A stretch of 41,560 nt of DNA from a virus, in IMG/VR virus record IMGVR_UViG_3300008952_000108, positions 1 through 41,560 of that record. One strand, written 5' to 3'. The position numbers and the translations under genes are program-made. Shown one piece after another: positions 299 to 36,876 of this stretch; position 1 is the first letter of the stretch, and every line of letters begins with the position of its first letter. The notes below the pieces were generated by a model. It was given only the letters and a program-made list of their open reading frames with translations. It searched no databases and had not been told where the DNA came from.

Positions 299-3200
299 TT
301 ATCGTCTTTTTTTCTTTTTTCGTGATTTTGTTTTACTCTTTTTTACTTTAGGTAAATTTTTCTCTATACCTACATCCCAAGTATTCCAACCTAATGCAGT
401 AGCTATACGCTGCCAAGTAGCATTCTGACTATCAGAAGATGCTCTAGCGTTATTTACTATCATAACAGCTCTATCAAGTGGTATATTAGTTGTTGCAGAT
501 ATAAAGTTAGCTACACCTAAAACTCCAGGGTTATCTGGATGTAATCCCATTTGGTGGATTTCTTCTTTATTGTATTTATAAGATATAAATGAATTATACA
601 TTTTTCTAAGTTTACTTCCAATAGGTGGAGAAATATTAGCGGCTTCAAGTAATGTTCTAGCATGATCGCCTCTGTATCCCTTTTCATCTTGTTTTCTAAA
701 CTGTAATATTATATTTTTAATAGTAGCAACTGACGCACCAGCTATACCACTACCTCGTAATATTGAATCTATTGAAGTATTTAAAGCTCTAATTTTCTTC
801 TCTTCAATCATCTCATCATCATCACTGAATCCCATAGCCATAAATAAAGCACTTTGTAAACCAGAGAATATTATATTTTGTATTGTTGTGTAATAAACAA
901 TTTTGGATATATTAGTCTTTACATCTCCTCGATTATTTTTAAGATCTGAGATAGCTTTTTTTGTTAAACGCATATACTGCATCGGTGTATTTTGGAAAGC
1001 TAATATTAATCTACCTAATGGTCCAGCTTGTTGTTGACTAATCATATCAGGTCTAGCAGATTGCTGTGATTTTTCAGATATTTCTAAGAATTCAGCAAAA
1101 GCAATTTTATGAGCTTCTTTTTCAGCCATACCTTGTTTTAGATATGTATTCATTCTATTTCTATAAAATGATGCTCCACCCATTGCTATTGCAAAACTAT
1201 CTGCCATTTGAGTAGGTGTAAAACCTTTTTTAAGTATATAACTTATAGCAGCATTAACACTACCTTGACCTCTTGCAACTGCGTTAGCTAATTCAGCTTC
1301 ATTAACATCTGTTTGTAATCCAGCTCTTCTTTGTTTTAATGTATCAGAATTAAATATCATACTAAAATCTTTCCAGAATTGTGGTTGATTAGCAAATGCT
1401 GCTCCAGCTTTTAATGGATTATTATCTGTCCAATTAACAAAGTTTACCATGGAGATAGTTTGTAACATAGCTGATCTAATATTTATAAACATAATAGCAC
1501 CAACAGAGTTATTAACCCAATTTAACCATTGATTAACTAATCTATTTTTACCAAACTTCCTATTAGTACCAGTCTCCATTCTCCACAACATGTCTTCTAA
1601 AGCTTCTCTAAAATTACTACCATATAAAGCTTCGATTTTATTCATGTTCTCTGGACTAAATATTTCATTTTTATTATTAATCCATTCTTGTAAATATTGT
1701 TTTCTATTTATATTCTGTGATACATAATGTAAATCACCTACGATATTACCAGATGTCCAATATTCTGTAGGTGGTGGATAAGAATCTAATCTAGTTATGA
1801 GTTCTAAGTCATTAGCTAATGCTATTAAATCACCTTGATTTTCAGCCCAATTGTTTTCGACTAACTCTACCAATTTATTAGTATCAATTTCACTCATTCC
1901 AGGTATATTATGACCAGCTCTATTCCATAAATAAACTCTAATAGCATCACCCCAACTGAAATTTTTATAACCAGTGGTTTTATTTATAAGAGCCCAAGCA
2001 GATTTATGTTTCTGTTTTAACCCCTTAAGATCATTTGCGATAGCCTGTTTAGCATGATTTAACATTCTATAAGCTCTAGCAAAAGGTTTAACTAAAGCTT
2101 CTTCTAAAAACTTCATATGTATTTCACCTTGTTTACCTTTACCTACAAACTGATATAATAAACCTACAAAATCTTCAGCTGAAGGTGGTATAAAAAATGT
2201 CCATTTATTATTAGCAGCTCCTTGTACTCTAGCAGCAGCGGTTGAAACTTCTTCATTAGGATCAACACCTTGTGATTCTGCTAATACAACATTAAAGTTT
2301 TCATTTAATGTTTTACTAAATTGAGCTTTAGCTTGATATGTTTTACCTTTAACATCTAATATATCTAAAACTTCTTTAACAGCTTTAACATTTTTAATTT
2401 GATCATCAGCAAATAAGAAATCATTATATCCTTCTGCAGCTTTTTCTACTATAACTTCTGCTTTAGCTTCCGGTCTACCATCAGCTAAACCTATTATATT
2501 TTTTAATGGTATATTTAAACCTACACTTTTTAAGAATTTTCGTATTGCTGGAGCAGCTTCTGCTGGTCTTGCTGTTAATATGTATATATCACTAGTACCA
2601 AACTTTTCTTTTAATGCTTTTACTTTATTAAAGAAAGGACCTTTCTTTGCCCCCTTTACATCTTCAAATTGAGAGAAGTCAAACGTAGCACCCATTTCTT
2701 CTAGTTCTACAGCTTGTTCCGCAAATTTTGCTGGAGATAATCTTCTTAACGTACCATCAGGCATTTTAACTAAAACTTCTTCTGTTGTTTTAGCTATTGT
2801 GTCATCAAAATCAATGAAGCTAGCGCCTTTAATAGGAGCATCTTTTCTTTTAGCCATTTTTAAGGCTTTATCCATTGTCTTTATCTTACTTATAGATTCA
2901 TCTAAAGTTTTTGATTTTGTTTTAGTTATTCTATTATTATTCTCTAATGCTAATTTTTCAGATCTAGATGGCTTATTATCTTTAGCAAGCTTTCTAACAT
3001 GTTTTTCGTTTAACATAGTAATGTCAGACTTGGACGTTATCTCTATTATATTAGGTATAACAGACATCGTTGGTTTACGACCTTTAATAACGTTAACTCC
3101 ATCAATTTTCTTTTTACTAACGGTTTTACCAGTTCTTAAATCATAACCAACAGCTCCACTGGATCTAATTCTAAAATTTAAAGAAACCCTTGCTTTAAGT

Positions 3201-6200
3201 GGTGGTATACCAGTTAGTTTACTACCTAAACTAAATAAACCTTTTTCTAAAATCTCTAATAAATAAACTTGATTACCTTCACCAGGTTTATTATTATATA
3301 TCCATTTTATTATTTCTTGATTCGTCTCCATTTTAGACTCATTCATTATTTGAATGGCTAAATTTTCACCCTTACTACCTAATTGATCCCAAATTGGTTG
3401 AGGTATAAAACTTTTATCGTTTATAATTGGAGGAATAAAAGTATTGTTCTCTGCGTTATATTCTTTTAATAGTTCATTAGCTCTATCATAATATCTTCGT
3501 AAAGCTTCTTTAGCTTTGTCTTGTTGTTTGTTTAATATATCTACAAATTTCTTAGGAAGCTTTTTAACATATGTTATCTCACCTGTTTCATGGTTATATG
3601 AGGATATATTTATACTACTAAATTGAGCATTCTCATCTAATTTAATTTCAACATTAGCATTTTTTCCATGTATTTTTGCTACAATATCTGGTGAACCACC
3701 TTCTTCAGTTGGTTGTTCAATTCCTATTTCTAGACCATCAATATTATGACCTCTTACTGTTCTAACATACTCCCATTCTGTACCTTTACCTCTCTTCATT
3801 CCTCCTTTAAATAACTTTTCAACAGCCATTCTAGTTTTCGCTGGTATTAATTGTTCGAGTTTTTCAATAGCTGAATCTAAAAATTCCCCTACAACATTTC
3901 CATACTTTATTCTTAATTTAGCATTTCTTAATTCAAACTTATTATTAAAAATACTTGAAAAACCATTAGCTACTACATCATCTCTTAAAGCTGTTAATGA
4001 TGTAGTTGAGAATTGTATACTTGGATCTCTTGATATTCTTTTACCAACTTCTTCTATTTCTTCTTGTAACCATAACTTGTTATCTCTTATTAATGTATTA
4101 GAATCTTTAGGCATAGATTTGAGAACTGTAATAGTAGCATCAAATCCTAATTCAACAGCGCCTCTTTCAGCTAATACTCTTTTTCTCTCACCCTTAACAT
4201 TACTTCTTTTACCAGTAATTGGGTTTACTGATGGTGGATTAAAGAACTTTAACAAGTCAGCATTACTAGGAACTAACTTCCTATATAAGGTAGGTCCTTG
4301 AGTCTCACTTTCATAATACAAAGCTTCAGTATGTCCATATTTCTTTTCATGAGCTCTTATCTCACTAGGATTTAAATCTCGTTTAACTACTTTTGTAAAT
4401 ACTCTTTCACTCTCAGGGATTAATCTTTCCATTTGAACAAGGTATCGTATTGGTATTGCAGCTATAAGATCTCTACCGTGATCAAATAAAAAGCCTCCAA
4501 CTAATTTACCATTTTCATCAAGTTGAATATATTTTTTACCCTTACCCATAAGAGTAGTTAACTTATCAGTTATTTTCGATACAAAGTATCCAGCTATCGT
4601 GTCTCTTAAATTATCCCAATTTAATTCATTATCTAAATTAGCTTGTTTTTGTATTCGTGTTAAGGCAGATTTGTTAGCTTCAATAACCTCATCATATATA
4701 ACATCTCCTTCTTGTACTTTTAATTTATTTCTTAAATTATCAGCTTGTTGTTTTGCTAAAGCTTCTTGTTTAGCAATCATTGCTTCTTCTGGGTTCATTG
4801 CTGTGTCAGCTATTTGTTTAGCCATTTGAGAGCCTTCTTTACCTTCTATAGTTGTATCTAAAGATTGAGCTTTACCAAGTGGTTTATCTTTCTCTCTTTT
4901 AGCATCAAATTCGTTTGCTACATCACCTTTTACAAAGTTTAACATAGATTTTTTACCTACTAACCATCCAAATAAAGTATTTTTAGTAGGATCATATTCC
5001 CTCCACATTTTTACAGCTAACCGGGTTTTAACTTCATTTATAAAATCAGCTTTAGAAGGACCTTTACCTTTTGAGTCTTTAAATCTACTTTCACTTATAC
5101 CTTCTGCTATCATACCATTTAACATGCTATCTGGATCTAATATCATTTCTGTAGCATCAAAATGTCCGTCTCTTTGAAAAGCCTCTTTAGTAATATTTGG
5201 TTCTACTAAATCATTTATATCGGTCATTAAATCACCTGTTCGTGATTTCTGTACAACACTAGGTCTTTTAGCACCTTCTTTTAACATACCAAGTATATTC
5301 TCATCTACTTTACCAGTTTGTATACTTCTGTCATATGTTTTTAAGAAATTATAAACATCAATACCATCTTTAAATGTTTTGTTAATACCTTTACTTCTAA
5401 ATAAAGCATGAAGTATATCCATTATTTTTGTGAACAAACTTTCATTATAACGTATTTGATTCTTTTGGATAGCATCAGAGAATGCGTTTAAATATTCTTC
5501 TGCATAATCTTTAAATTCGTTCTCAACCATATTTCCTTCAGCATCCCTTACTATCTCACCTTTATTGTTTCTTTGAAATCTATAATTAGCATCTATTCTT
5601 CTTTGTACTACTCTATATTCACTTCGTGATAAACTATTTACAAACGATTGCATTAAATCAACACCTTCTTTAGTCATTTCACCTTTTGAATCTCTTAGTG
5701 TAGATTTCATAACCCCATGTAATAATTCATGAGAACCAACTGATATAGCTTCAACTTCTAAAGCTCTACTTTTATTGATATACCATTTACCTGATCCATC
5801 AAAAAATCCATCAACTAATCTTACATCATCAAATCTTCCATTATCAGATTTTGCTTGACGTTTACCTGCCTTAGTATTTTGATATGTTTTTTGAAATTCT
5901 TCTGGATTTTCTATAACAATTTGTTCTAAACCAGCTCCTTTAGCATACGCTTCAGATATATCTAAATTTCTATTTAATGATTGTTGAACATGATCTTTCC
6001 ATATTAATCCATTTTCTTCATAAGCTATCCTATTCTCTTCTTCAAGCATTGATCTAGTTTCATTCCCTATATCTTTCTTCTCTAATTGATCTTTGTTTCT
6101 ATTTATACGATCTACATTTGATGCATAATTATATAAAGATTCACCGCGTAGAGATCGAATTATTTTAGCAGATTGAGTTTGTTTGTTAACTAATTCGTTT

Positions 6201-6739
6201 GATAATACTTTTTGTTTTTCTCTAATTTTAGCAATTAAACTTTCATCATTTGTATTAGCAATTTCATGCTCTAGTTTAGTTAACTCTTTATATCTATCAC
6301 TTATATATTGTTGATCATCTTTTGTTCTTAGTAATACTTCTGCTCTTCTTTGAGCTGTGTTACCAGATAATGCATTAACACCTTGTAAACCTACATTAAC
6401 ATTACCACCCATGAAAGCACCAACAAGACCCTCATCAAATATTTGATGCCATTTTTTTCTATCCCAATCTTTCCAAGCTTTATCAAATTCTTCATTATGT
6501 CCTAAACCTACTCTAAAACCACCTATTCTATCTAAAGAATCCCATGCATCTACAGCTAAAGCTTGTGACATTTCCATTAAACCTTCTCCACCCATTGCTA
6601 ATCCAGCACTTTTAAGAAATCTAGCAGCACCATTCATTGTTGCCTCTCTAACAGCATCAACAGCCTTACCATCTCCCATACCTATTGCTTTTCTAAAATT
6701 CCCAGCAGCAGGAGCAAGTAAAAATCTTCTAGCTAACAT
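299..6739 (-). CDS. Giant multidomain internal virion / polyvalent-type protein (C-terminal part)
   Basis: A 2146-residue protein. A zincin motif HELLH sits at residues 337-341, followed by an EE pair (DYAEEYLNAF) that could supply the third zinc ligand. A PD-(D/E)xK-like pattern is at 1017-1033 (PDI...VEIK). A HAD phosphatase-like block has DFDDT at 1310-1314, ILTARP at 1387-1392 and FLFADD at 1441-1446. The C-terminal third is long, helical and lacks recognised motifs; a hydrophobic stretch lies near residue 1955. The protein ends in a very basic tail (KTKSRKKKKRR). This domain mixture is known from phage polyvalent proteins that are injected with DNA, and its place at the end of the virion module fits an ejected cargo protein. 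It is in the same frame as the preceding 229-residue ORF, separated only by a TGA and 17 sense codons, so it may be translated as part of a ~2393-residue fusion. If initiated separately, ATG 6739 has a GGAGGTGAC-ATG leader. Confidence 0.8.
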   Translation of the reverse strand: MLARRFLLAPAAGNFRKAIGMGDGKAVDAVREATMNGAARFLKSAGLAMGGEGLMEMSQALAVDAWDSLDRIGGFRVGLGHNEEFDKAWKDWDRKKWHQIFDEGLVGAFMGGNVNVGLQGVNALSGNTAQRRAEVLLRTKDDQQYISDRYKELTKLEHEIANTNDESLIAKIREKQKVLSNELVNKQTQSAKIIRSLRGESLYNYASNVDRINRNKDQLEKKDIGNETRSMLEEENRIAYEENGLIWKDHVQQSLNRNLDISEAYAKGAGLEQIVIENPEEFQKTYQNTKAGKRQAKSDNGRFDDVRLVDGFFDGSGKWYINKSRALEVEAISVGSHELLHGVMKSTLRDSKGEMTKEGVDLMQSFVNSLSRSEYRVVQRRIDANYRFQRNNKGEIVRDAEGNMVENEFKDYAEEYLNAFSDAIQKNQIRYNESLFTKIMDILHALFRSKGINKTFKDGIDVYNFLKTYDRSIQTGKVDENILGMLKEGAKRPSVVQKSRTGDLMTDINDLVEPNITKEAFQRDGHFDATEMILDPDSMLNGMIAEGISESRFKDSKGKGPSKADFINEVKTRLAVKMWREYDPTKNTLFGWLVGKKSMLNFVKGDVANEFDAKREKDKPLGKAQSLDTTIEGKEGSQMAKQIADTAMNPEEAMIAKQEALAKQQADNLRNKLKVQEGDVIYDEVIEANKSALTRIQKQANLDNELNWDNLRDTIAGYFVSKITDKLTTLMGKGKKYIQLDENGKLVGGFLFDHGRDLIAAIPIRYLVQMERLIPESERVFTKVVKRDLNPSEIRAHEKKYGHTEALYYESETQGPTLYRKLVPSNADLLKFFNPPSVNPITGKRSNVKGERKRVLAERGAVELGFDATITVLKSMPKDSNTLIRDNKLWLQEEIEEVGKRISRDPSIQFSTTSLTALRDDVVANGFSSIFNNKFELRNAKLRIKYGNVVGEFLDSAIEKLEQLIPAKTRMAVEKLFKGGMKRGKGTEWEYVRTVRGHNIDGLEIGIEQPTEEGGSPDIVAKIHGKNANVEIKLDENAQFSSINISSYNHETGEITYVKKLPKKFVDILNKQQDKAKEALRRYYDRANELLKEYNAENNTFIPPIINDKSFIPQPIWDQLGSKGENLAIQIMNESKMETNQEIIKWIYNNKPGEGNQVYLLEILEKGLFSLGSKLTGIPPLKARVSLNFRIRSSGAVGYDLRTGKTVSKKKIDGVNVIKGRKPTMSVIPNIIEITSKSDITMLNEKHVRKLAKDNKPSRSEKLALENNNRITKTKSKTLDESISKIKTMDKALKMAKRKDAPIKGASFIDFDDTIAKTTEEVLVKMPDGTLRRLSPAKFAEQAVELEEMGATFDFSQFEDVKGAKKGPFFNKVKALKEKFGTSDIYILTARPAEAAPAIRKFLKSVGLNIPLKNIIGLADGRPEAKAEVIVEKAAEGYNDFLFADDQIKNVKAVKEVLDILDVKGKTYQAKAQFSKTLNENFNVVLAESQGVDPNEEVSTAAARVQGAANNKWTFFIPPSAEDFVGLLYQFVGKGKQGEIHMKFLEEALVKPFARAYRMLNHAKQAIANDLKGLKQKHKSAWALINKTTGYKNFSWGDAIRVYLWNRAGHNIPGMSEIDTNKLVELVENNWAENQGDLIALANDLELITRLDSYPPPTEYWTSGNIVGDLHYVSQNINRKQYLQEWINNKNEIFSPENMNKIEALYGSNFREALEDMLWRMETGTNRKFGKNRLVNQWLNWVNNSVGAIMFINIRSAMLQTISMVNFVNWTDNNPLKAGAAFANQPQFWKDFSMIFNSDTLKQRRAGLQTDVNEAELANAVARGQGSVNAAISYILKKGFTPTQMADSFAIAMGGASFYRNRMNTYLKQGMAEKEAHKIAFAEFLEISEKSQQSARPDMISQQQAGPLGRLILAFQNTPMQYMRLTKKAISDLKNNRGDVKTNISKIVYYTTIQNIIFSGLQSALFMAMGFSDDDEMIEEKKIRALNTSIDSILRGSGIAGASVATIKNIILQFRKQDEKGYRGDHARTLLEAANISPPIGSKLRKMYNSFISYKYNKEEIHQMGLHPDNPGVLGVANFISATTNIPLDRAVMIVNNARASSDSQNATWQRIATALGWNTWDVGIEKNLPKVKKSKTKSRKKKKRR

Positions 6740-26559: not shown

Positions 26560-26834
26560 TATTTAGATCTTCTTTCAGCAAAACCCCCAAAAGCTTTCTT
26601 TTCTTTTTCTTCTTTAGGTTTATTTTCTAATAAATTCTCTTCTTCTTGAATTCTAGATAATATCTCAAAAGCATCAAATATAGCTAATTTTTTGGTTGCG
26701 GCTGCGTTTTTTAATCTATCAGCTGATATATCATCATCACTATCAACTATAGGTTCTTTGGCAACTTTTACTAATTCCTCAACTGCTTTATAACCAGCTT
26801 GGATTATATTCTTCTTCTTTTCCTTGATATTCAT
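26559..26834 (-). CDS. Small charged protein, possible small-terminase candidate
   Basis: A 91-residue helical protein (MNIKEKKKNIIQAGYKAVEE) with alternating acidic and basic tracts and a basic C-terminus (KEEKEKKAFGGFAERRSK). I chose ATG 26834; an in-frame TTG lies 4 codons upstream at 26846 but overlaps more of the previous gene. The gene overlaps the preceding one by 47 bases, and its stop overlaps the terminase ATG (TAATG), implying translational coupling to the packaging enzyme. Small size, charge and position just before the large terminase suggest a small terminase or accessory factor, but no helix-turn-helix is evident. The function is unproven. Confidence 0.65.
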   Translation of the reverse strand: MNIKEKKKNIIQAGYKAVEELVKVAKEPIVDSDDDISADRLKNAAATKKLAIFDAFEILSRIQEEENLLENKPKEEKEKKAFGGFAERRSK

Positions 26835-27372
26835 ATTTAATTGCAATGTCTTGTGTTCTTACTCTATATAGTCGTTCGTTATTAATAACAAACTCATATT
26901 CACTATTAGGTGTAAATCCAACTAAACTACCTGATTTAGGTAATTTTTTATTAGTATATTTCAGTATACCAATTAAAGGTTCTTCTTTATTGGTATCTAA
27001 TTTACTATAAGGTTTAATAGGTTTAACGAAACAGTACTGGTCTAAAGGTATCCAATCTTTATTTCTTTTATAAGCGTAAATTTGATCAATAAAAACAAAA
27101 TACATATTGTCTTTATAATAACTTTTACTATCTTGCTCATCACCTCTAATATCTAAATATCTTCTAAATATATTATGGTGCACTATTATTTCATCACCTA
27201 CTTTTATATCTGTTTTAATTGATTTAGGAACAGATATTACTATAGCTTCTCTACTAACATGTTGGTGTTGGAAATTATCAGTGTTAATAATTAACTCTTT
27301 ATCACCTATCTTTTTAGTATTATTGTATCTAGTATCTTTTGGTTTTACTATAAAATTATATATACCTTTCAC
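26788..27372 (-). CDS. GroES-like (Cpn10-fold) protein, tentative
   Basis: A 194-residue protein that starts with GTG at 27372; there is no in-frame ATG until about residue 90, and the GTG overlaps the previous TAG (TAGTG). The sequence is beta-rich: IKVGDEIIVHHNIFRRYLDI (~57-76), YFVFIDQIYAY, LDQYCFVKPIKP. A 'GDE-hydrophobic-VHHN' strand with a downstream D-x-[IV] element is the pattern seen in co-chaperonin-like phage proteins, which would cap host GroEL to fold phage capsid proteins. The mobile-loop region is not clearly identifiable and the protein is longer than host GroES (~97 residues). It may equally be another small beta-barrel fold. Confidence 0.6.
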   Translation of the reverse strand: MKGIYNFIVKPKDTRYNNTKKIGDKELIINTDNFQHQHVSREAIVISVPKSIKTDIKVGDEIIVHHNIFRRYLDIRGDEQDSKSYYKDNMYFVFIDQIYAYKRNKDWIPLDQYCFVKPIKPYSKLDTNKEEPLIGILKYTNKKLPKSGSLVGFTPNSEYEFVINNERLYRVRTQDIAIKYEYQGKEEEYNPSWL

Positions 27373-27898: not shown

Positions 27899-28807
27899 TT
27901 ACTTTTTAATCACTTTCTTCTTTGGTTTAGTAATAAACCAATCTTTATATACCTCTCTTTTTTCCATAATATAGTCAAAATACTTATCAACTTTAGCTCT
28001 CCAATCTTTATCTACATGGGGATTAATAATCCCTGATTTATGATTTGAGAAGGTATGATTTATAAATTCTTTTATATTATCTTGGTTTGTAAAGAGATAA
28101 CTATTTATACATGAAAATGATCCATGCATAATATTATTCCAAACATCTATTGGTTCTATTCTTTTTCCTAAAAGAGCAGCATAAATAGCACTTTCACTTA
28201 TATGTGTTGTATAAACACCTTCAGCTTTTTGCATATAGTAATACATGTCAATTGTTCTAGGTAATATACATTGTTCACCAAAAAAATCCTTTAATTCACC
28301 AATTATTTGATGAGTTGTTATTGGGTGTGGTTTAAAATATATATTATCTCCATGTTGCTTTTTAATCTCTCTTAATCTATTTAAACAGATATTAGATTTT
28401 ATTTTATTTGATCCAGGTAATACAACCAAATAATCTTTTGGTGGATACTTATCAAATTCTTCAGATCTATCTGTATATTTATTAGCAGTGTTTTTTTGAA
28501 TATTATTTATCAAATAACTAGCATAATCTTCTACAGATTCTGGTTTTGAATTCCATGCATCAGCTAATTGTTCGTTCCTTTGTTTAAGATTCAATGGTTG
28601 CATATAAAAACTTGTTGCAAACTCTGTATAACCCATTGTCTTAAAATAAGGCATTTCTTCTGCTAAAACATCATAACTTGATTCTAAACCAAGTTCACTA
28701 CATTTCCTAATAACATATCCTTCGATTGTTTCTAGTTCATATAGTCGTTTATTTTTTTTAAGGGGACCTATTCTCTTGTCTAGTTCCTTCTTATTAAACA
28801 TTTCCAT
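27899..28807 (-). CDS. GT-B-type glycosyltransferase, capsule/polysialyl-transferase-like
   Basis: A 302-residue protein. The C-terminal half has the hallmark of capsule-type GT-B enzymes: YFKPHP at 157-162 (nucleotide-sugar or acceptor phosphate handling) and, about 40 residues on, a VYTTHISESAIYAALLGKRI stretch (198-217), matching the 'TH-x-S-x(6)-LLGK' pattern of KpsC/KpsS, polysialyltransferase and CDP-glycerol transferase relatives. A Rossmann-like strand LVVLPGS is at 127-133. The N-terminal half is divergent. It lies directly downstream of a Ser/Thr/Asn-rich repeat protein, so it could add sugar to that fibre; remodelling of host surface glycans is the alternative. The start has two nearby ATGs (28807 and 28801), and the leader has no Shine-Dalgarno. 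Family membership is moderately sure; donor and acceptor are unknown. Confidence 0.7.
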   Translation of the reverse strand: MEMFNKKELDKRIGPLKKNKRLYELETIEGYVIRKCSELGLESSYDVLAEEMPYFKTMGYTEFATSFYMQPLNLKQRNEQLADAWNSKPESVEDYASYLINNIQKNTANKYTDRSEEFDKYPPKDYLVVLPGSNKIKSNICLNRLREIKKQHGDNIYFKPHPITTHQIIGELKDFFGEQCILPRTIDMYYYMQKAEGVYTTHISESAIYAALLGKRIEPIDVWNNIMHGSFSCINSYLFTNQDNIKEFINHTFSNHKSGIINPHVDKDWRAKVDKYFDYIMEKREVYKDWFITKPKKKVIKK

Positions 28808-28866
28808 ATTATTAAATTTAATTTATATTAGTATATATATTATTACACATTTTTAGTGTTTTCTAC

Positions 28867-30687
28867 CTAAGTTGTAGACCTGCTAAGTCTATCAATCTCT
28901 GTATTATAATTCTTTACATAAGTACTATACCACGACCTAGTTGTGTTTGTACTTGTATTATAAGTAGTAGTTGTACTTGTATTATAAGTAGTAGTGGTAC
29001 TAGTGTTGTAAGCAGTAGTAGTAGATTTACTAGTTGAATTAGTATATGTTGTTTGTCTTTTAACAACAGTACTAGTATTGTATACAGTTGTGGTAGTCTT
29101 ACTTGTTTCATACGTTGTAGTAGTAGACTTACTAGTTACAGTACTTGTGTTATATGTTGTTGTGGTACTTTTACTTGTCTCATACGTTGTGGTAGTAGAC
29201 TTTGAAGTATTCCACGTAGTAGTATACGTCGTAGTAGTAGAAGTACTTGTGTTATATGTTGTGGTAGTACTATGACTAGTTTCATACGTTGTTGTGGTAT
29301 TGGTACTTGTATTATACGTTGTAGTAGTAGTTGTAGACGTATTATACGTAGTAGTAGTAGATTTTGACGTTGACCAAGTTGTAGAGGTACTTTTAGAAGT
29401 TATTGATGATGTTGATCTAGTTGTAGCTGTATTAGTACTTGTATTATAAGTAGTTGTATAAAATGTAAAATCAAGTGTACTTGTATTAAATGTCGTTGTA
29501 GTACTTTTACTAGTAGACCACGTTGTAGTCGTGCTTTTACTAGTTGCCCATGTTGTAGTGGTACCTTTAGTAGTAGTATAAACTGTAGACGTTGTATACG
29601 TTGTAGTTGTAGCTTTACTAGTTATAGAAGATGTTTCATAAACTGTTGAGGTAGTATATGTAGTAGTTGTACTATGTGATGTTGCTGTACTTTTACTTGT
29701 ACTCCATGTGGTTGTAGTAGATTTACTTGTTATAGAAGATGTTGATCTACTTGTTTGTGTACTTGTACTAGTATTATAAGTTGTTAAATAAAATGTAAAA
29801 TCGAAAGTACTTGTGTTAAAAGTAGTTGTTGTAGATTTTGATGTTGACCAAGTTGTAGTTTTACTAGTTATAGAACTAGTTGCATATACTGTTGATGTTG
29901 TATAAGTAGTTGTAGTACTTCTACTTTCTGTAGTGTTTCTACTAGTACTCCATGTAGTTGTGTATGCAGTAGTTGTACTCTGACTAGTTGATCTACTTTC
30001 TGTTGTATTATGACTAGTTTCATAAGTGGTTGTTGTGTTAAATGTTGTTGTCCACGTAGTAGTAGTTGATTTACTAGTAACAGTAGATGTATTATATGTA
30101 GTTGTAGTCGAGTATGTAGTAGTTGTTGATCTACTTTCGGCTGTATTCTTACTTGTAGCCCACGTAGTAGTATAAGTAGTGGTTGTACTTTGACTTGTAC
30201 TCCTACTTTCAGTTGTATTTTTTGATGTATTATAAGTAGTAGTTGTATTAAATGTTGTAGTCCATGTTGTTGTAGTTAACCTCTTAGTTACTGTACTTGT
30301 GTTATATGCGGTTGACGTACTATATGTCGTTGTTGTACTCCTACTTTCTGTGGTACTTTTACTAGTAGCCCAAGTTGTTGTAGTACTTCTACTTGTAGCT
30401 GTACTATATGTTGTTGTAGTACTCTGACTAGTATTAAAGGTTGTTGTAGTACTAATACTTGTGTTATATGTGGTAGTGGTACTTTGACTCGTATTATATG
30501 TTGTTGTTGTACTTTGACTAGTATTAAAAGTAGTTGATGTGGTATACGTAGTTGTTGTATTCCACGTGGTAGTTGTACTTTTACTAGTATTCCAAGAAGT
30601 TGTGGTTGATCTAGTTGTTTCCCAACTTGTAGATGTACTTTTAGACGTATTCGCCTGAGTCATATAAGTTGTAGTAGTATTAGCCAT
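28867..30687 (-). CDS. Decapeptide-repeat Ser/Thr-rich protein 2, probable fibre or surface structure
   Basis: A 606-residue protein made almost wholly of a ~10-residue unit, consensus S-x-S-T-T-T-T-[YWF]-[NSE]-T, from residue ~10 to ~590. The aromatic recurs every ten residues. Position 2 varies (K, R, Q, I, H, N, D) and so does the residue after the aromatic (N, E, S, A, T). Interruptions recur: ESRSTTTTY units, STxDFTFYxTTYNTS blocks (two), and VTKR or VVKR turns. Near the end the period shortens to eight (YNTSTTTT). There is no proline or cysteine and almost no glycine. The tail (NYNTEIDRLSRSTT) is non-repetitive. It starts inside the end of the methyltransferase-Hint gene (8-base overlap) behind a perfect AAAGGAGG. 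Such periodic beta-prone sequence suggests a solenoid or trimeric fibre shaft, possibly glycosylated at the many NTS sequons. Function is inferred. Confidence 0.8.
   Translation of the reverse strand: MANTTTTYMTQANTSKSTSTSWETTRSTTTSWNTSKSTTTTWNTTTTYTTSTTFNTSQSTTTTYNTSQSTTTTYNTSISTTTTFNTSQSTTTTYSTATSRSTTTTWATSKSTTESRSTTTTYSTSTAYNTSTVTKRLTTTTWTTTFNTTTTYNTSKNTTESRSTSQSTTTTYTTTWATSKNTAESRSTTTTYSTTTTYNTSTVTSKSTTTTWTTTFNTTTTYETSHNTTESRSTSQSTTTAYTTTWSTSRNTTESRSTTTTYTTSTVYATSSITSKTTTWSTSKSTTTTFNTSTFDFTFYLTTYNTSTSTQTSRSTSSITSKSTTTTWSTSKSTATSHSTTTTYTTSTVYETSSITSKATTTTYTTSTVYTTTKGTTTTWATSKSTTTTWSTSKSTTTTFNTSTLDFTFYTTTYNTSTNTATTRSTSSITSKSTSTTWSTSKSTTTTYNTSTTTTTTYNTSTNTTTTYETSHSTTTTYNTSTSTTTTYTTTWNTSKSTTTTYETSKSTTTTYNTSTVTSKSTTTTYETSKTTTTVYNTSTVVKRQTTYTNSTSKSTTTAYNTSTTTTYNTSTTTTYNTSTNTTRSWYSTYVKNYNTEIDRLSRSTT
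28890..30670 (-). repeat. 30-base-period coding repeat (second repeat gene)
   Basis: The DNA repeats with a period near 30 bases, encoding the decapeptide units of the overlying gene. Copies differ mostly by synonymous third-base changes, so the repeat is much better conserved in protein than in DNA. That points to selection on the protein and to old rather than recent tandem expansion. Confidence 0.85.
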
Positions 30688-31729
30688 CAGATCCTCCTTT
30701 CATTAAAATATTGTTAACAAAATAATTATGATCAATTAACACTCTAGCTATAGTGTGCCTTGTATCTGAACTATCAAAATCAATACTTGTTATTTCTATT
30801 TCAGTATTATCTATTTTATAAAGTTTATCACCAACAACTAATTCATTCATATTTTTTTCTACCCACGATCCATCTCGTTTTATTATCATTGGATGATTAC
30901 CAGTTACTTTTAATAACCCATTGTTTATATCGTAAACTCCTTTACATACCATAACAAGTGTTCTACCACAAGTTTGATTAACTAAACTAGGATTACTAAC
31001 GTCAGCGCATGTTACGATACTGTGATTATGTATTGCTTCAATTTCTTTTGTAATAGAATCAGGCATATTAACAGTTACATCACTAACTATACCTCTTCCT
31101 GTTGCGGGTGGTGTTAATATTTTAAGAGGTACTTTATAAATATCTTTATTATAATATGAATTCATAGGTGGATCTACAGAAACATCAGTAAATGTTATAC
31201 CGTCTGTCCAATAAAATTTCATATATTCATCAGAATCTCCACCACTAAAATTCCACCAAGTAATCTTACCACCAGTTTTTACTATTTTTGCTGTGCAAAA
31301 CATTCTAAATTTAGCATGTAAATCATCGTCTGCATATGTATCCATTAATATAGCGTCGTATCTGCCAGTTGTACCATATAATGACCACCATTTATCTTCA
31401 TGTATTGTAACATTAGATTTTCCAACTGCCCACGCTTTAGCTTTTTCTATTACTTGTGGATGAAATTCACATATCGTATGTGATGCAGGGTTTCTAGCTT
31501 GAATAGCATTAGATAATATACCCATACCAAAACCGCATTCAAGAACATGGTCCCCTTCGGATACAGCAAGTTCTGCCATTTTTTCCATAATAGGTTGTTC
31601 CCATTCCATCATAACTTCATATACCCCAGGTCCTCCAACACTTGTTGGATGGGGACAATTCCAAGTTATCTTGTCATCTGTAAATGTTAATGTTGCATCT
31701 TTGTATGCGTTTTGTATTTGTGTTGCCAT
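30680..31729 (-). CDS. GAMT/RMT2-like N-methyltransferase with a partial C-terminal Hint domain
   Basis: A 349-residue, two-part protein. Residues ~25-205 match the guanidinoacetate/arginine N-methyltransferase family: EVMMEWEQPIMEKMAELA (38-55), SAM-binding motif I HVLECGFGMG (61-70), the acidic ribose-binding element CEFHPQV (87-93), and YDAILMDTY (124-132) followed by KTGGKITWWN. Residues ~262-349 resemble the second half of a Hint (intein/hedgehog) fold: TGNHPMII (276-283), a dGxW then ELVVGDKLY block (296-304), and DHNYFVNNIL (333-342). The nucleophile-bearing first Hint block is not evident, and the terminal His-Asn is replaced by MKGGSDG, so self-splicing looks impossible as it stands. 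It sits between the two repeat-protein genes, 12 bases after one and overlapping the other. A substrate on the fibre is inferred; a small guanidino compound is the alternative. Confidence 0.75.
   Translation of the reverse strand: MATQIQNAYKDATLTFTDDKITWNCPHPTSVGGPGVYEVMMEWEQPIMEKMAELAVSEGDHVLECGFGMGILSNAIQARNPASHTICEFHPQVIEKAKAWAVGKSNVTIHEDKWWSLYGTTGRYDAILMDTYADDDLHAKFRMFCTAKIVKTGGKITWWNFSGGDSDEYMKFYWTDGITFTDVSVDPPMNSYYNKDIYKVPLKILTPPATGRGIVSDVTVNMPDSITKEIEAIHNHSIVTCADVSNPSLVNQTCGRTLVMVCKGVYDINNGLLKVTGNHPMIIKRDGSWVEKNMNELVVGDKLYKIDNTEIEITSIDFDSSDTRHTIARVLIDHNYFVNNILMKGGSDG
30690..30698 (-). promoter_or_regulatory. Strong Shine-Dalgarno for the second repeat gene
   Basis: The minus strand reads AAAGGAGGATCTGATG, placing a near-perfect anti-16S match a few bases before ATG 30687. 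The same bases encode the last residues (MKGGSDG) of the methyltransferase-Hint protein. Nearly all other starts in the window lack any GGAGG, so this one stands out and should raise or couple translation of the repeat protein. Confidence 0.6.
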
Positions 31730-31741
31730 ATTATTTTAATT

Positions 31742-33550
31742 TTATATACATCCTCTTGCACACCCACCTGTTGAAGTTGTTCTACTTGTTTCTATATTTG
31801 TATAATAAGTGGTTGTTGTATTTTGTGATGTACTATATTGAGTATCTGTACTTTTACTAGTGGTATATGTTGTTGTTGTTGATGCAGACGTTGATGTACT
31901 TCTACTTTCAGTTGTATTTCTACTTGTAGCCCAAGAGGTCGTAGTTGATTTACTAGTGGCCCAAGTAGTTGTAGTTGATCTACTAGTTGACCATGTTGTC
32001 GTTGTAGATCTACTCGTTGACCACGTTGTTGTAGTACTTTTTGATGTTAATGTATTAAACGTAGTTGTTGTTGTAGTACTAGTATTGTACGTTGTTGTTG
32101 TTGTATACGTGGTTGTTGTACTTCTACTCTCAGTTGTTGATGTACTAGTATTATACGAAGTAGTAAAATCTGTAAATGTATTCTGACTAGTATTTCTAGA
32201 TGTAGAAGTAGCATGACTAGTTTCATAAGTTGTTGATGTTGTATATGTAGTAGTCCAACTTGTGGTTGTACTATGTTGTGTTGTGGTACTAGTGTTATAT
32301 GTTGTACTTGTTGTGTATGTTGTTGTCGTGCTTCTGCTTTCAGTAGTACTTTTACTAGTAGCCCAAGTTGTAGTATATGCAGTAGTTGTGCTTTGACTAG
32401 TACTCCTTGATGTAGATGTAGCGTGACTTGTGTTATATACTGTTGAAGTTGTATACGTGGTAGTCCAACTTGTAGTGGTAGATTTACTAGTTACAGTACT
32501 TGTATTAAACGCTGTACTTGTGGTATACGTAGTAGTAGTTGATCTACTCTCTGTCGTATTTTTACTAGTATTCCATGTTGTAGTATAAGTTGTCGTTGTA
32601 CTCGTATTATACGTAGTTGTTGTACTTTTAGAAGTTGACTGACCCATATCAGTATTTCTTTTAACAGTGGTACTAGTATTATATACGGTCGTCGTGCCAA
32701 ATGTCGTTGTCCATGTTGTAGTATAGGTAGTAGTGGTAGTTGTACTCGTGTTATACGTTGTAGTAGTATCATAAGTAGTAGTTGTACTTCTACTTTCTGT
32801 AGTATTTTTACTAGTATTCCACGTTGTCGTGTATGTTGTTGTTGTGCTTCGACTTTCTGTAGTATTATGACTAGTTTCGTATGTAGTAGTGGTAGTTGTA
32901 CTAGTATTGAATGCAGTTGTAGTGGTAGTACTTGTGTTAAAAGTAGTTGTAGTGCTTCTTGACGTTGATTGTCCAAAATCAGTTTGCAGTTTAGTTACTG
33001 TACTAGTATTGTATGTTGTAGTTGTATTAAACGTTGTCGTCCAAGTAGTTGTATATGTAGTTGTAGTATCAGTACTAGTATTATACGTTGTAGTTGTACT
33101 TTTACTAGTTTCATAGGTAGTAGTTGTACTTTTACTAGTTTCATATGCAGTTGAAGTACTTTTAGTAGTATTATAAACAGTGGTTGTACTCTTACTGGTA
33201 CTCCATGTTGTTGTAGTACTCTTACTAGTTATAGAAGACGTCTCATATGTAGTCGTTGTAGACTTACTGGTTTCGTATGTAGTTGTTGTAGATTTGCTTG
33301 TAGCCCACGTTGTTGTATAAGTTGTGGTAGTAGCTGTAGATGTGTTATAAGTAGTAGTTGTATCTGTACTAGTGTTATAAGTTGTTGCGTAAAATGTAAA
33401 ATCTGTTGTACTAGTATTGTATGTAGTAGTTGTAGACTTACTAGTCGACCAAGATGTACTTTTACTAGTTGAGTGAGATGTACTTTTTGATGTGCTCTTT
33501 GATGTAGCTGTTAGCCAAAAATCTTTTTTCGTAAATCCGAGGTTTTTCAT
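31742..33550 (-). CDS. Decapeptide-repeat Ser/Thr-rich protein 1, probable fibre or surface structure
   Basis: A 602-residue protein with a short unique head (MKNLGFTKKDFWLTATSKST) and then ~57 units of the same decapeptide as its partner gene (S-x-S-T-T-T-T-[YW]-[NE]-T). It shares the partner's special blocks: one TTDFTFYATTYNTS near the N-terminus, ESRSTTTTY units, and two hinge-like insertions (VTKLQTDFGQSTSRS and VKRNTDMGQSTSKS). The C-terminus is distinctive: NIETSRTTSTGGCARGCI, giving the only two cysteines. It starts 12 bases after the tail-fibre gene at 33563 and ends 12 bases before the methyltransferase-Hint gene. Proximity to the fibres suggests an outer tail appendage. The unique head could be the virion anchor and the Cys tail a cross-link or metal site; both are guesses. 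The long valine-rich ORFs on the other strand are artefacts of this repeat. Confidence 0.8.
   Translation of the reverse strand: MKNLGFTKKDFWLTATSKSTSKSTSHSTSKSTSWSTSKSTTTTYNTSTTDFTFYATTYNTSTDTTTTYNTSTATTTTYTTTWATSKSTTTTYETSKSTTTTYETSSITSKSTTTTWSTSKSTTTVYNTTKSTSTAYETSKSTTTTYETSKSTTTTYNTSTDTTTTYTTTWTTTFNTTTTYNTSTVTKLQTDFGQSTSRSTTTTFNTSTTTTTAFNTSTTTTTTYETSHNTTESRSTTTTYTTTWNTSKNTTESRSTTTTYDTTTTYNTSTTTTTTYTTTWTTTFGTTTVYNTSTTVKRNTDMGQSTSKSTTTTYNTSTTTTYTTTWNTSKNTTESRSTTTTYTTSTAFNTSTVTSKSTTTSWTTTYTTSTVYNTSHATSTSRSTSQSTTTAYTTTWATSKSTTESRSTTTTYTTSTTYNTSTTTQHSTTTSWTTTYTTSTTYETSHATSTSRNTSQNTFTDFTTSYNTSTSTTESRSTTTTYTTTTTYNTSTTTTTTFNTLTSKSTTTTWSTSRSTTTTWSTSRSTTTTWATSKSTTTSWATSRNTTESRSTSTSASTTTTYTTSKSTDTQYSTSQNTTTTYYTNIETSRTTSTGGCARGCI
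31770..33520 (-). repeat. 30-base-period coding repeat (first repeat gene)
   Basis: Tandem ~30-base units encode the decapeptide array of this gene. As in the partner gene, the Thr and Ser codons vary freely at synonymous positions while the aromatic position is kept. Confidence 0.85.
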
Positions 33551-33562
33551 ATGATTTCATTT

Positions 33563-34840
33563 TTACGCAAAGTTACCAACATAATTCACAAGTACTTTAT
33601 CTGTCGCATGTACATAGTATGATATAATATGAATTGCATTTGCTGTCGTTACAAAATTTATAGTAGCTCCATCTGGTGTTAACATATAACTTGGTAATGC
33701 CACAAAAGATAATGATCCTACACTTGCAGGATTTGTTAATACTATCATACCGGTTTTACCAACATCTCCACTTGCTACCGTTAAAGCTATAGTAGTTGCT
33801 TCATTCCCTACAGTTACATTATGATTATCATTATCAGCAAGAACAATCGTGTGTGTACCACTAGATTCAGATACTGCCGCTGGTGTTCCTTGTACTATAC
33901 TTCCCTTTACATATAAATCACCAGCTAAGTGAAGATCTTTCCATTGTTTTAAAGTAGAACCTAAATCTCTAGCACCATCAGTTCCTCCTACAAGAGCAGA
34001 TCCATTCCATCTAACTTCAGCACCATTAACGTTTAATGTAATCCTACCGTCAGTTGAAAAATCAATTAATTCTTGATCTGAAGAACTTGTATATTGTCTA
34101 CCAATTTTTAATGATGTATTATATAAAGTAGTAGGTGAAAATGTACCGCAGGAAAAAGTACCATCTATATCCGCGTCTCCAGATATATCTAATGAACCTG
34201 CTTCTATTTCTCCGGTTGCTATTAATTTATCAGCACTTGCATCCCAAAGTAAATATTTTGAAGCTGTATCACCAAAGAATTTAACATCATGCCCAGCATC
34301 GTCAACACCAACATTTAAAGGTACACCTATATCTATGGATTTTGTTCCACCATCTAAAGTCATATAAATTGCATCACCACCACTACCATTGTCATTCATA
34401 AATATAATATCTTGGTCAGCATCTGATTGGTGAATTAATAAATTACCTGAATCACTTGTTATCCATGATCCAACATTTATTGTACCTCCATCTGGACTAT
34501 GTGTACCAGGAGCGTGATAAATATTAAAATCACTATCAGCACCCATTTTAAGCTTAACTTCATCTGCAAGGGTTAAATGAGAACCCGTTAGTGTTACTCC
34601 ATTACTGGCTGTAATTGTACCGCAGGAAAAAGTACCATTAACATCCATGTCACCGGTTGCAAATACTTTATCACCTGTGTTACAGTATAATACTGCACCA
34701 CCACTATTATTTAATGACCAAGTGTTAGTTGAAAATGTTAAAGACGTAGATGTGGTGGCAGCATATCTAACACCATCCGCTCCAACATTTATATGTCCTA
34801 AACTACCTAAATCTAAATCACTTAAAAACTGAATCGCCAT
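33563..34840 (-). CDS. Tail-fibre-like protein with DIDGT repeats
   Basis: A 425-residue beta-rich protein (MAIQFLSDLDLGSLGHINVG). It has Gly/Asp-rich strand-turn repeats common in marine phage fibres, including two GTFSCGT units (about residues 69-77 and 230) and a SLDISGDADIDGT block shared with the neighbouring fibre gene. The middle has the 'DLGS-x-K-QWKDLHLAGDLYVKG' element that often precedes a fibre knob. The C-terminal ~100 residues (SSGTHTIVLADNDNHNVTVG onward) look like a compact receptor-facing beta domain. It follows a terminator hairpin, so it may have its own expression level. It is likely part of the adsorption apparatus together with the next genes. Confidence 0.75.
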   Translation of the reverse strand: MAIQFLSDLDLGSLGHINVGADGVRYAATTSTSLTFSTNTWSLNNSGGAVLYCNTGDKVFATGDMDVNGTFSCGTITASNGVTLTGSHLTLADEVKLKMGADSDFNIYHAPGTHSPDGGTINVGSWITSDSGNLLIHQSDADQDIIFMNDNGSGGDAIYMTLDGGTKSIDIGVPLNVGVDDAGHDVKFFGDTASKYLLWDASADKLIATGEIEAGSLDISGDADIDGTFSCGTFSPTTLYNTSLKIGRQYTSSSDQELIDFSTDGRITLNVNGAEVRWNGSALVGGTDGARDLGSTLKQWKDLHLAGDLYVKGSIVQGTPAAVSESSGTHTIVLADNDNHNVTVGNEATTIALTVASGDVGKTGMIVLTNPASVGSLSFVALPSYMLTPDGATINFVTTANAIHIISYYVHATDKVLVNYVGNFA

Positions 34841-34905: not shown

Positions 34906-36876
34906 TTAAGAACTTGGGTAAGTAATATCACTTCCTGCTCCTATATTGTCTCCAATTATTTCCTGTATAACAACTACTATGTCGTTACTAGGTGCTGCAG
35001 AAAAGACTATTTGTATTGTGTCCGTATCTACTCTATCAACATCGGCAAATACATCTAAATATGTGGTTCCATCGTATAATTTAACAATAATGTTATTAGA
35101 TGTTAAACCGTGAGCAATATTACATTTAAGTGCTGAGCTATCTAATTCACTAACATCTATTGTTGCTGTTTTTTGTACAGCTTTAATTCTATTATCAACA
35201 ACTGTATTTAGAGCTGTACCAGCAACTGTTATTGCGTCAGCTTCTAATGTACCATCGATATCAGCATCTCCCGATATATCTAAACTAGTTGCATCAACTT
35301 CACCTGCTACAGTTAAAACACCGCTAGCAACTGTCATTAAATCTGTATCATTCGTGTGACCTATTGTTGAACCATTAACAACAACATCATCAATATCTAA
35401 AGAACCACCCGAAATTAATCCAGTTGTTGTGATTGCAGAAGAACCAGTGTCTATTGTTCCAAATCCTGATGTAATAGATCCAGAGTTTAATGCTCCTGTG
35501 GTTACTATAGAAGAACTACCAGCAATAGGTGAATATAAAGAACCTAAAGCTGTACCATTTAATGTTATAGCGTCTGCTTCTAAAGTACCATCAACGTCGA
35601 CATCACCTGATATATCAAGAGTAGCAAATACTGAAGTACCTGTAGCTGTTACTTTACCAGTTACATTTATTGGATGTGAGAAATCAAATTCATCATTTGT
35701 AGCATCCCATAATATCGTAGCATCATTTGAAGCATCTACAGCATCTTGTATTGTAATACCTGAACCGTTTGCAGTTGATGATGTATCACTACCACTTGCA
35801 TAATTTAATACTATATTTTTATCTTCAACAGTTAATGTTCCTACGTTGGCTGTTATTGTATCACCTGATACAGTTAAATCACCAGTTACAACTAAGTCAC
35901 CTGATGTTGTTACTGTAACGTCTGTTGCGTCACCAATTGTTACACTAGAAGTTACTTGTGGTAATCTTGCTGTTAAGTTAGAAACACTAACATCTACATC
36001 GGTGTTTGTAATAGCTCCACTTGCTGCACCTAAATATCCCCATTGTGTAGCTGATATTGTAGTAGAACCAATTGCTTCTAATTGTTCTCCTTCTGCTGCT
36101 GTTAAGTTTGATATTTCAGTTACTTGACTTGCAGCTATTGTTTTGTTAGTAAGAGTACTAGTACTAGAAGCAGTTATATAACCATAATCTTCAATTCTAT
36201 TCTTTATAGCAAGCGCGGTCATTAAATGATCATTTGCATCAGAAGCTTCTGAAGTAACATCTATATCATCAACTAGATGACCACCAATTGTTAAGCTACC
36301 AGTTAAAGGACCAGCGAAAGCATCTGAAGTTACAGTACCATCAAAATATGCGTCTTTAAATTCTAATGAAGATGTACCAAGATCTATATCGTTATCTGTT
36401 ATTGGAACCAAAGCTCCGTCTTGTAATTTTATTTGTTGAGTACCATCAATGTCAAATATAATTGCATTATCTGTACTAAAATCAATATTAGCATGTGATG
36501 CACCATATCCAACTGCTAGCGAAGCGTTGTATATACTTGTTATTCCTGTTTGAGCAGCGGTTACAGCGATGTCATTAGTATTAACCGTCATACCTGTTCC
36601 AGCACCTACAGCTAATGAGCCTGATGAAGTAACAGATCCAGTTAAACCATCACCACCGTCAACTTGTGTTACGGTACCGGATCCAGATCCAGTTCCCAGT
36701 GTTTGCCATGAAGAACCGTTATAGAATTTCAGGCTTCCTGAATCGTAGATCAATTTACCAGCGGTATCACCGGCATTGCCAGTCGTTGAGTGATCTACAA
36801 CAAAGTCTTGTAATTTGTTGTCATTTAAGGTTAAATTACCTTTGACGTCCAAATGATTTAAAATAGGTATTGCCAT
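34906..36876 (-). CDS. Large tail-fibre-like protein
   Basis: A 656-residue protein starting MAIPILNHLDVKGNLTLNDN, with a fibre-type head (KLIYDSGSLKFYNGSSWQTL) and a long Ser/Thr/Asp/Gly beta-repeat shaft. Three similar blocks (LDISGDVDVDGTLEADAITL and LDISGDADIDGTLEADAITV here, and a related block in the next fibre gene) show internal duplication and kinship with the downstream fibre. A 'SSTSTLTNKTI' element and the QWGYLGAASG block are typical of marine phage fibres with trimerising beta-helical shafts. The C-terminal ~80 residues (AVQKTATIDVSELDSSALKC onward) form a separate beta domain, probably receptor-facing. The receptor is unknown. Confidence 0.8.
   Translation of the reverse strand: MAIPILNHLDVKGNLTLNDNKLQDFVVDHSTTGNAGDTAGKLIYDSGSLKFYNGSSWQTLGTGSGSGTVTQVDGGDGLTGSVTSSGSLAVGAGTGMTVNTNDIAVTAAQTGITSIYNASLAVGYGASHANIDFSTDNAIIFDIDGTQQIKLQDGALVPITDNDIDLGTSSLEFKDAYFDGTVTSDAFAGPLTGSLTIGGHLVDDIDVTSEASDANDHLMTALAIKNRIEDYGYITASSTSTLTNKTIAASQVTEISNLTAAEGEQLEAIGSTTISATQWGYLGAASGAITNTDVDVSVSNLTARLPQVTSSVTIGDATDVTVTTSGDLVVTGDLTVSGDTITANVGTLTVEDKNIVLNYASGSDTSSTANGSGITIQDAVDASNDATILWDATNDEFDFSHPINVTGKVTATGTSVFATLDISGDVDVDGTLEADAITLNGTALGSLYSPIAGSSSIVTTGALNSGSITSGFGTIDTGSSAITTTGLISGGSLDIDDVVVNGSTIGHTNDTDLMTVASGVLTVAGEVDATSLDISGDADIDGTLEADAITVAGTALNTVVDNRIKAVQKTATIDVSELDSSALKCNIAHGLTSNNIIVKLYDGTTYLDVFADVDRVDTDTIQIVFSAAPSNDIVVVIQEIIGDNIGAGSDITYPSS

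Follow-up and report, generated by a model that had tools for sequence, protein, structure and literature searches.

The closest described arrangements are the streptococcal serine-rich-repeat (SRR) adhesin loci (GspB/Fap1 with GtfA/GtfB), in which a Ser/Thr-rich adhesin of alternating repeats is encoded beside its own glycosyltransferases. In these bacterial loci the adhesins are anchored to the cell wall, GtfA/B belong to another glycosyltransferase (GT) family and use UDP-GlcNAc, and no GAMT, Hint or phage context is known. Among phages, mycobacteriophages (e.g., Maravista) encode GTs that are thought to glycosylate virion proteins, with the capsid as the proposed target (PMC11256854), though these lack the repeat fibres, methyltransferase and Hint domain of the locus described here. 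Few cases have been described of phage fibres that are decorated post-translationally by phage-encoded enzymes, and our literature searches on threonine-rich or glycosylated fibres in combination with phage glycosyltransferases returned nothing matching. Virion glycosylation in phages and loci pairing an adhesin with a GT are each of a known kind; neither the libraries nor the literature searched contained the present combination or its arrangement of Hint and GAMT.

The locus lies on an IMG/VR virus contig of 41,560 bp (hereafter the window, i.e., the whole stretch of DNA analyzed) and comprises four genes, all on the minus strand: REP1, a Thr-rich repeat protein of 602 aa (31742..33550); a GAMT-like SAM methyltransferase (MT; residues 1–206) fused to a Hint/BIL domain (208–347) in a protein of 349 aa (30680..31729); REP2, a second Thr-rich repeat protein of 606 aa whose C-terminus (SWYSTY...) is conserved (28867..30687); and a GT-B glycosyltransferase of 302 aa (27899..28807; phrog_26179). 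Re-reading of the open reading frames reproduced exactly the gene order and the spacings of 12, −8, and 59 bases given in a preliminary description, and with them the placement of the methyltransferase gene as embedded between REP1 and REP2. Two tail-fibre-like proteins are encoded upstream on the same strand, one of 425 aa (33563..34840), relatives of which sit before REP1 in many cassettes, and one of 656 aa (34906..36876). The cassette is unnamed in the libraries searched, as the repeats had no Pfam or PHROG match and the GT belongs to unannotated PHROG families. The window terminase shares 64% identity with its counterpart in a Manatee Spring podovirus and 44% with those of Flavobacterium elemo phages. 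Just upstream of the terminase genes, positions 26788–27372 encode a GroES-like co-chaperonin (phrog_13932, E 1.2e-20); elemo phages have a similarly placed GroES-like gene, and some relatives have GroEL too. Elsewhere, a 2146-aa open reading frame (299–6739) has as its sole patch a weak polynucleotide-kinase-like match (phrog_415, 1.8e-4). An anti-phage defence system was considered and rejected, as PADLOC gave generic methyltransferase-type and weak hits alone.

Threonine makes up 48% and serine 18–19% of the two repeat proteins. Their aromatic residues fall mainly at even distances from one another (lag 10 at 3.3–3.5 times background, odd lags at 0–0.7), and Thr occupies the positions two before and two after an aromatic residue in 86–92% of cases, such that the REP1 shaft follows the pattern T-x-aromatic-x-T. 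The “decapeptide” repeats of the preliminary description capture the main period of 10, but the finer rule is one of even spacing (4, 6, 10, 14, 16). Such alternation of Thr and aromatic residues is the pattern that would be expected of an extended beta strand. Because Thr is encoded by a mixture of ACA, ACT, ACG, and ACC and dN/dS relative to a related cassette (L006) lies well below 1 (REP 0.24, GT 0.09, MT 0.09, Hint 0.16), indicating purifying selection on all four cassette genes, we consider these to be real, selected proteins. The NxS/T sequons in the two repeat proteins (25 and 32) are inevitable at 66% Ser/Thr and so provide no evidence for N-glycosylation.

With the low-complexity filter on, tblastn of REP1 against phages returned no match, and repeat proteins in relatives were instead recognized by composition and spacing. 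The N-terminus of REP1 is conserved (MKNLGFTKKDFWLTAT in the window protein; M[KR]WLWNRIDFWNT or KNLGFxKKDFWLT across the clade), its shaft ranges in length from a few hundred residues to more than 1900, and its C-terminal tips have been exchanged among orthologues, which end in GGCxRGC tails, Gly-rich tails, a Peptidase_S74 (endosialidase-type) chaperone, an intact Hint domain, or Cys-rich ends. The S74 tips of two orthologues exceed the Pfam cut-off of 22 bits (L034, 25.6; L155, 24.5) and that of a third (L046) is just under it; the tip of the window's own REP1 is different from S74. In Stenotrophomonas phage DLP_6, the repeat is the C-terminal part of gp265, a protein annotated as a baseplate wedge. 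Given its composition and the swapped tips of its orthologues, REP1 is very probably a tail fibre, and we infer that both REP1 and REP2 are part of the window phage's virion. Mucin-like decoys, shed or secreted, would share the extreme Thr/Ser content of mucins and bacterial SRR adhesins, and the highly variable length of the repeat proteins (about 170 to 1937 aa) would suit such a role; yet the S74 chaperone tips, the baseplate wedge fusion, the conserved N-termini, and the place among tail-fibre genes make decoys that are not virion fibres very improbable. Two further features of these fibres were seen in relatives. A globular domain of one and the same type (MLWRYPDN / ILWRYPH...) is inserted in the REP1 of one cassette (L007:3819-4289) and in the REP2 of another (L009), which suggests a swap between fibres, and in a third (L010:6900-7245) REP1 is frameshifted near its end, with a GGCARGCQ tail readable in another frame.

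An MT scan of IMG/VR found six contigs with the order REP1–MT–REP2–GT wherever the contig was long enough, and locus scans yielded 80 loci with the GT as query and 36 with the MT. In the window clade, a Ser/Thr-rich open reading frame lies upstream at nearly every GT locus with enough upstream sequence. Among 103 distinct GTs, the main lineage has 80 testable loci, and at 79 of these a repeat protein is encoded at most six genes upstream of the GT, the lone exception (L163) being at a contig edge. At 20–45% identity, the GT has relatives in the Caulobacter phages Lullwater and Cr30, in Stenotrophomonas phage DLP_6, and in several uncultivated phages. In Lullwater, gp41 is the repeat protein and gp42 the GT. 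When GTs were grouped into lineages at 60% identity, a local search found a repeat protein near the GT in seven of the 10 testable lineages, while none of 339 control open reading frames scored as one. As for the others, L134 has no local repeat protein but one of 814 aa elsewhere in the record, DLP_6 likewise encodes its repeat elsewhere in the genome (the wedge C-terminus noted above), and in Cr30 just a short Thr/Tyr-rich protein, counted as borderline, lies directly upstream of the GT. The preliminary description had named independent occurrence of the genes as evidence against its reading; for the GT we found the reverse, GT and repeat protein occurring together, adjacent or elsewhere, in nine of the 10 testable lineages, with Cr30 as the borderline tenth. 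Searched from the other direction, a Hint-tailed repeat fibre led to 11 loci, and in every one REP2 and GT follow the fibre.

The slot between the repeat genes, on the other hand, varies: it holds GAMT-Hint (~350 aa), GAMT plus a SAM-fold protein (171–185 aa, spermidine-synthase-like), the SAM-fold protein alone, or nothing. For this reason we take the repeat protein and the GT to be the fixed core. Likewise, a GAMT profile found none in seven distant GT genomes, so that the MT is a non-constant part of the cassette. Of the four-gene unit originally proposed, the GT/repeat pair is constant, but the methyltransferase is no fixed member. A search of genome contigs also found the spermidine-synthase-like form of the cassette on one Flavobacteriales MAG contig.

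The GT-B-like assignment made at the outset was borne out by a confident AlphaFold2 model of GT-B fold (34-sequence alignment; pLDDT 91, pTM 0.86) and by a KxHP motif present in all 34 GT sequences. Among the matches listed, the nearest folds are KpsC (Z 10.8 over 228 residues), WbbB (9.8), and GT38 polysialyltransferase (9.5), all of them enzymes that use CMP-activated acid sugars. The GT resembles the Kdo transferases KpsC, WbbB, and KrkA and the GT38 enzyme in GT-B fold and HP motif (Z 9–11), but shares only about 10–16% identity with them. A QxxxD nucleophile motif marks retaining Kdo transferases (GT99/GT107/GT140), of which KpsC and WbbB use a CMP-activated sugar (PMC12887879). This motif has no conserved column in the 34 GT sequences, and the window GT is accordingly a GT-B member that forms a family by itself. 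Judging from the model, the donor is probably a CMP-sugar, with a Z of about 10 leaving room for other GT-B donors. Profile searches of the PDB with the GT alignments gave nothing relevant, and GtfA (4pqg) appeared in the Foldseek list as a weak match alone (E 0.01).

Such HMM and fold matches inform on family and not on substrate; from its genomic company, we consider it likely that the GT acts on the repeat proteins. The GT and MT might instead modify the host surface (LPS, superinfection exclusion) or another phage component such as DNA, and have nothing but a late operon in common with the fibres; phage GT-B enzymes that glucosylate DNA exist, and KpsC and WbbB, the GT's neighbours in fold, work on glycans of the bacterial surface. 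However, the repeat protein accompanies the GT in those nine lineages despite their differing genome architecture, even where the two are not adjacent, and no repeat proteins turned up in the stretches read of terminase (terL) relatives that have no GT (an elemo phage, MW202828). Modification of the host surface or of another phage component is thus improbable, and action on the fibres is preferred.

The methyltransferase is the second enzyme of the cassette, and profile and fold matches to both of its parts upheld the earlier assignment of a GAMT-like methyltransferase with a Hint part. Residues 1–206 match human GAMT (3orh) with a profile E of 1.5e-15; in an AlphaFold2 model of the fusion (pLDDT 89), the methyltransferase fold matches GAMT 1xcj (Z 22.1, rmsd 2.3 over 194 residues) and the Hint part (208–347) matches BIL2 6y75 (Z 18.9, rmsd 2.1 over 137 residues). 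In rat GAMT, Glu45 and Asp134 form a guanidine-binding acidic pair. E44, D130, and the SAM motif GFGMG are invariant in 31 MT sequences, down to 34% identity, and D130 corresponds to GAMT Asp134, whose role has been described (PMC12471008). The window enzyme thus resembles GAMT in fold, profile, and Glu/Asp pair, but differs in being part of a phage fibre cassette and in its frequent fusion to a dead Hint domain. It would methylate a guanidine, with peptidyl Arg as the proposed substrate.

The Hint domain fused to the MT retains the BIL2-like fold without Cys1 or the terminal His-Asn: intein residue 1 (Cys1) aligns with Gly213 and the His-Asn is replaced by Lys-Gly, with the terminal His-Asn absent from every MT-fused Hint copy in the alignment. 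As the catalytic residues are lost, the window Hint is not expected to carry out ordinary splicing or cleavage, and active self-splicing in the window was rejected. In cassettes without GAMT, on the contrary, an intact Hint sits on the fibre C-terminus, with Cys1, TxxH, and His-Asn invariant in eight, and this fibre-fused Hint is related to that of the window (pairwise BLAST 7e-7). We propose that Hint moved from the fibre onto the methyltransferase of the next gene and became inactive in the process, and that the dead domain probably docks the methyltransferase on the fibre tail. Matches in the literature on Hint in phages concerned terminase inteins. Separately, an unrelated phage protein of 617 aa (L227:5242-7095) apparently has two tandem Hint-like regions.

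The REP1 tail itself offers a candidate target for methylation. In the window, REP1 ends in GGCARGCI followed by the stop (31742..31768), and a Gly-rich Arg-Gly or Arg-Asn tail of this kind (GGCxR[GN]C or GGGRGG) is found in all 18 scorable cassettes with GAMT and in none of the 32 without (Fisher 5.5e-14 over the 50 cassettes, a value that ignores kinship); a 19th cassette with GAMT has the tail in another frame owing to a frameshift. On the GT tree, tail and GAMT change five times, always jointly, and three of these changes are forced by supported branches, too few for significance in a sign test (p 0.25). As GAMT presence tracks this tail, the single Arg of the tail is a more likely methyl target than the Arg of the ESRS/SRS units favoured in the preliminary description, and from the sequence coupling we tentatively suggest, at somewhat below even confidence, that it is methylated. 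Because the 3′ end of REP1 adjoins the MT gene, tip and MT could also be swapped together on a single piece of DNA, with neither acting on the other. Outside the cassettes, four phages (L106, L107, L110, L124) have a GAMT gene followed by a protein with a Gly-rich Arg-Gly tail and no repeat fibres or GT in the stretch read; about a dozen GAMT-like MTs after fibre genes in other phages have no Arg-Gly tail in their neighbours. GAMT-like methyltransferases after tail-fibre genes, with no repeat proteins or GT nearby, were observed in unrelated phages (L109-L125).

The same coupling could arise if the methyltransferase and its SAM-fold replacements did not act on the fibre as enzymes at all, but were tip-specific assembly chaperones or adhesin partners that swap along with the tip, as T4 gp38 does with gp37. 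Tail-fibre chaperone genes occupy a position resembling the MT slot, the slot gene and the class of tip switch jointly, the genes are neighbours, and S74-tipped fibres, which bring their own chaperone, occur in cassettes without the GAMT gene. Yet a pure chaperone would have no need of the invariant GFGMG and E44/D130 across 31 sequences, radical SAM and other transferase genes are present in related cassettes, and we regard the chaperone role as unlikely.

These additional genes are diverse, and several of the enzymes that they encode score above Pfam cut-offs. Beside the repeat protein and GT, relatives encode GT29 sialyltransferase-like and GT8 enzymes, further methyltransferases, radical SAM proteins, GT4, and a GT25 with an OGFOD2-like 2OG oxygenase. 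The addition of GT29, GT8, GT4, GT25, radical SAM, and MT genes fits stepwise decoration of one fibre. Individual layouts include an operon of a repeat fibre, two methyltransferases, GT29-like, GT8-like, and GT (L133:1317-6873), i.e., five enzymes behind one fibre; a GT25 fused to the OGFOD2-like oxygenase beside a cassette (L137:7972-9303), recalling the collagen lysyl hydroxylase/glycosyltransferase layout; and a radical SAM protein, possibly peptide-modifying, between REP2 and GT in the Hint-tailed-fibre clade (L176:4805-5833).

Taken together, a self-decorating tail-fibre module with its own tailoring enzymes is the best explanation of this locus, and we hold it to be reasonably probable, with the enzyme activities inferred. 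The earlier view that the enzymes modify the repeat fibres stands insofar as GT and repeat protein form a dedicated module, but the Arg target and the role of Hint have been revised. In the proposed mechanism, REP1 and REP2 would be long virion fibres with shafts of extended Thr/aromatic beta-type repeats, and the GT would place a sugar on Ser/Thr of these shafts in the infected cell, ahead of assembly. The sugar would probably be acidic and CMP-activated, i.e., Kdo or a sialic/nonulosonic-type acid. The GAMT-like enzyme would methylate the single Arg of the Gly-rich REP1 tail (GGCxRGC or GGGRGG), docked there by the inactive Hint, kin of the self-processing Hint of fibre tips. The literature searched contained no biochemistry or virion proteomics for the cassette proteins. 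In its full form (methylation of a fibre-tip Arg steered by an inactive intein-like Hint that moved from tip to enzyme, and CMP-sugar coating of the shafts, in a widespread modular system with exchangeable enzymes), the model is possible but rather doubtful.

Fibres of this family and their tailoring enzymes are found together across marine podovirus-like, Caulobacter, Stenotrophomonas, and larger uncultivated phages, with the GT constant and the other enzymes differing. This makes it testable whether sugars or Arg methylation on fibres set host range, shield the fibres, or evade host recognition, and the cassettes would offer naturally matched enzymes and simple repeat substrates that could be used for peptide glycosylation.
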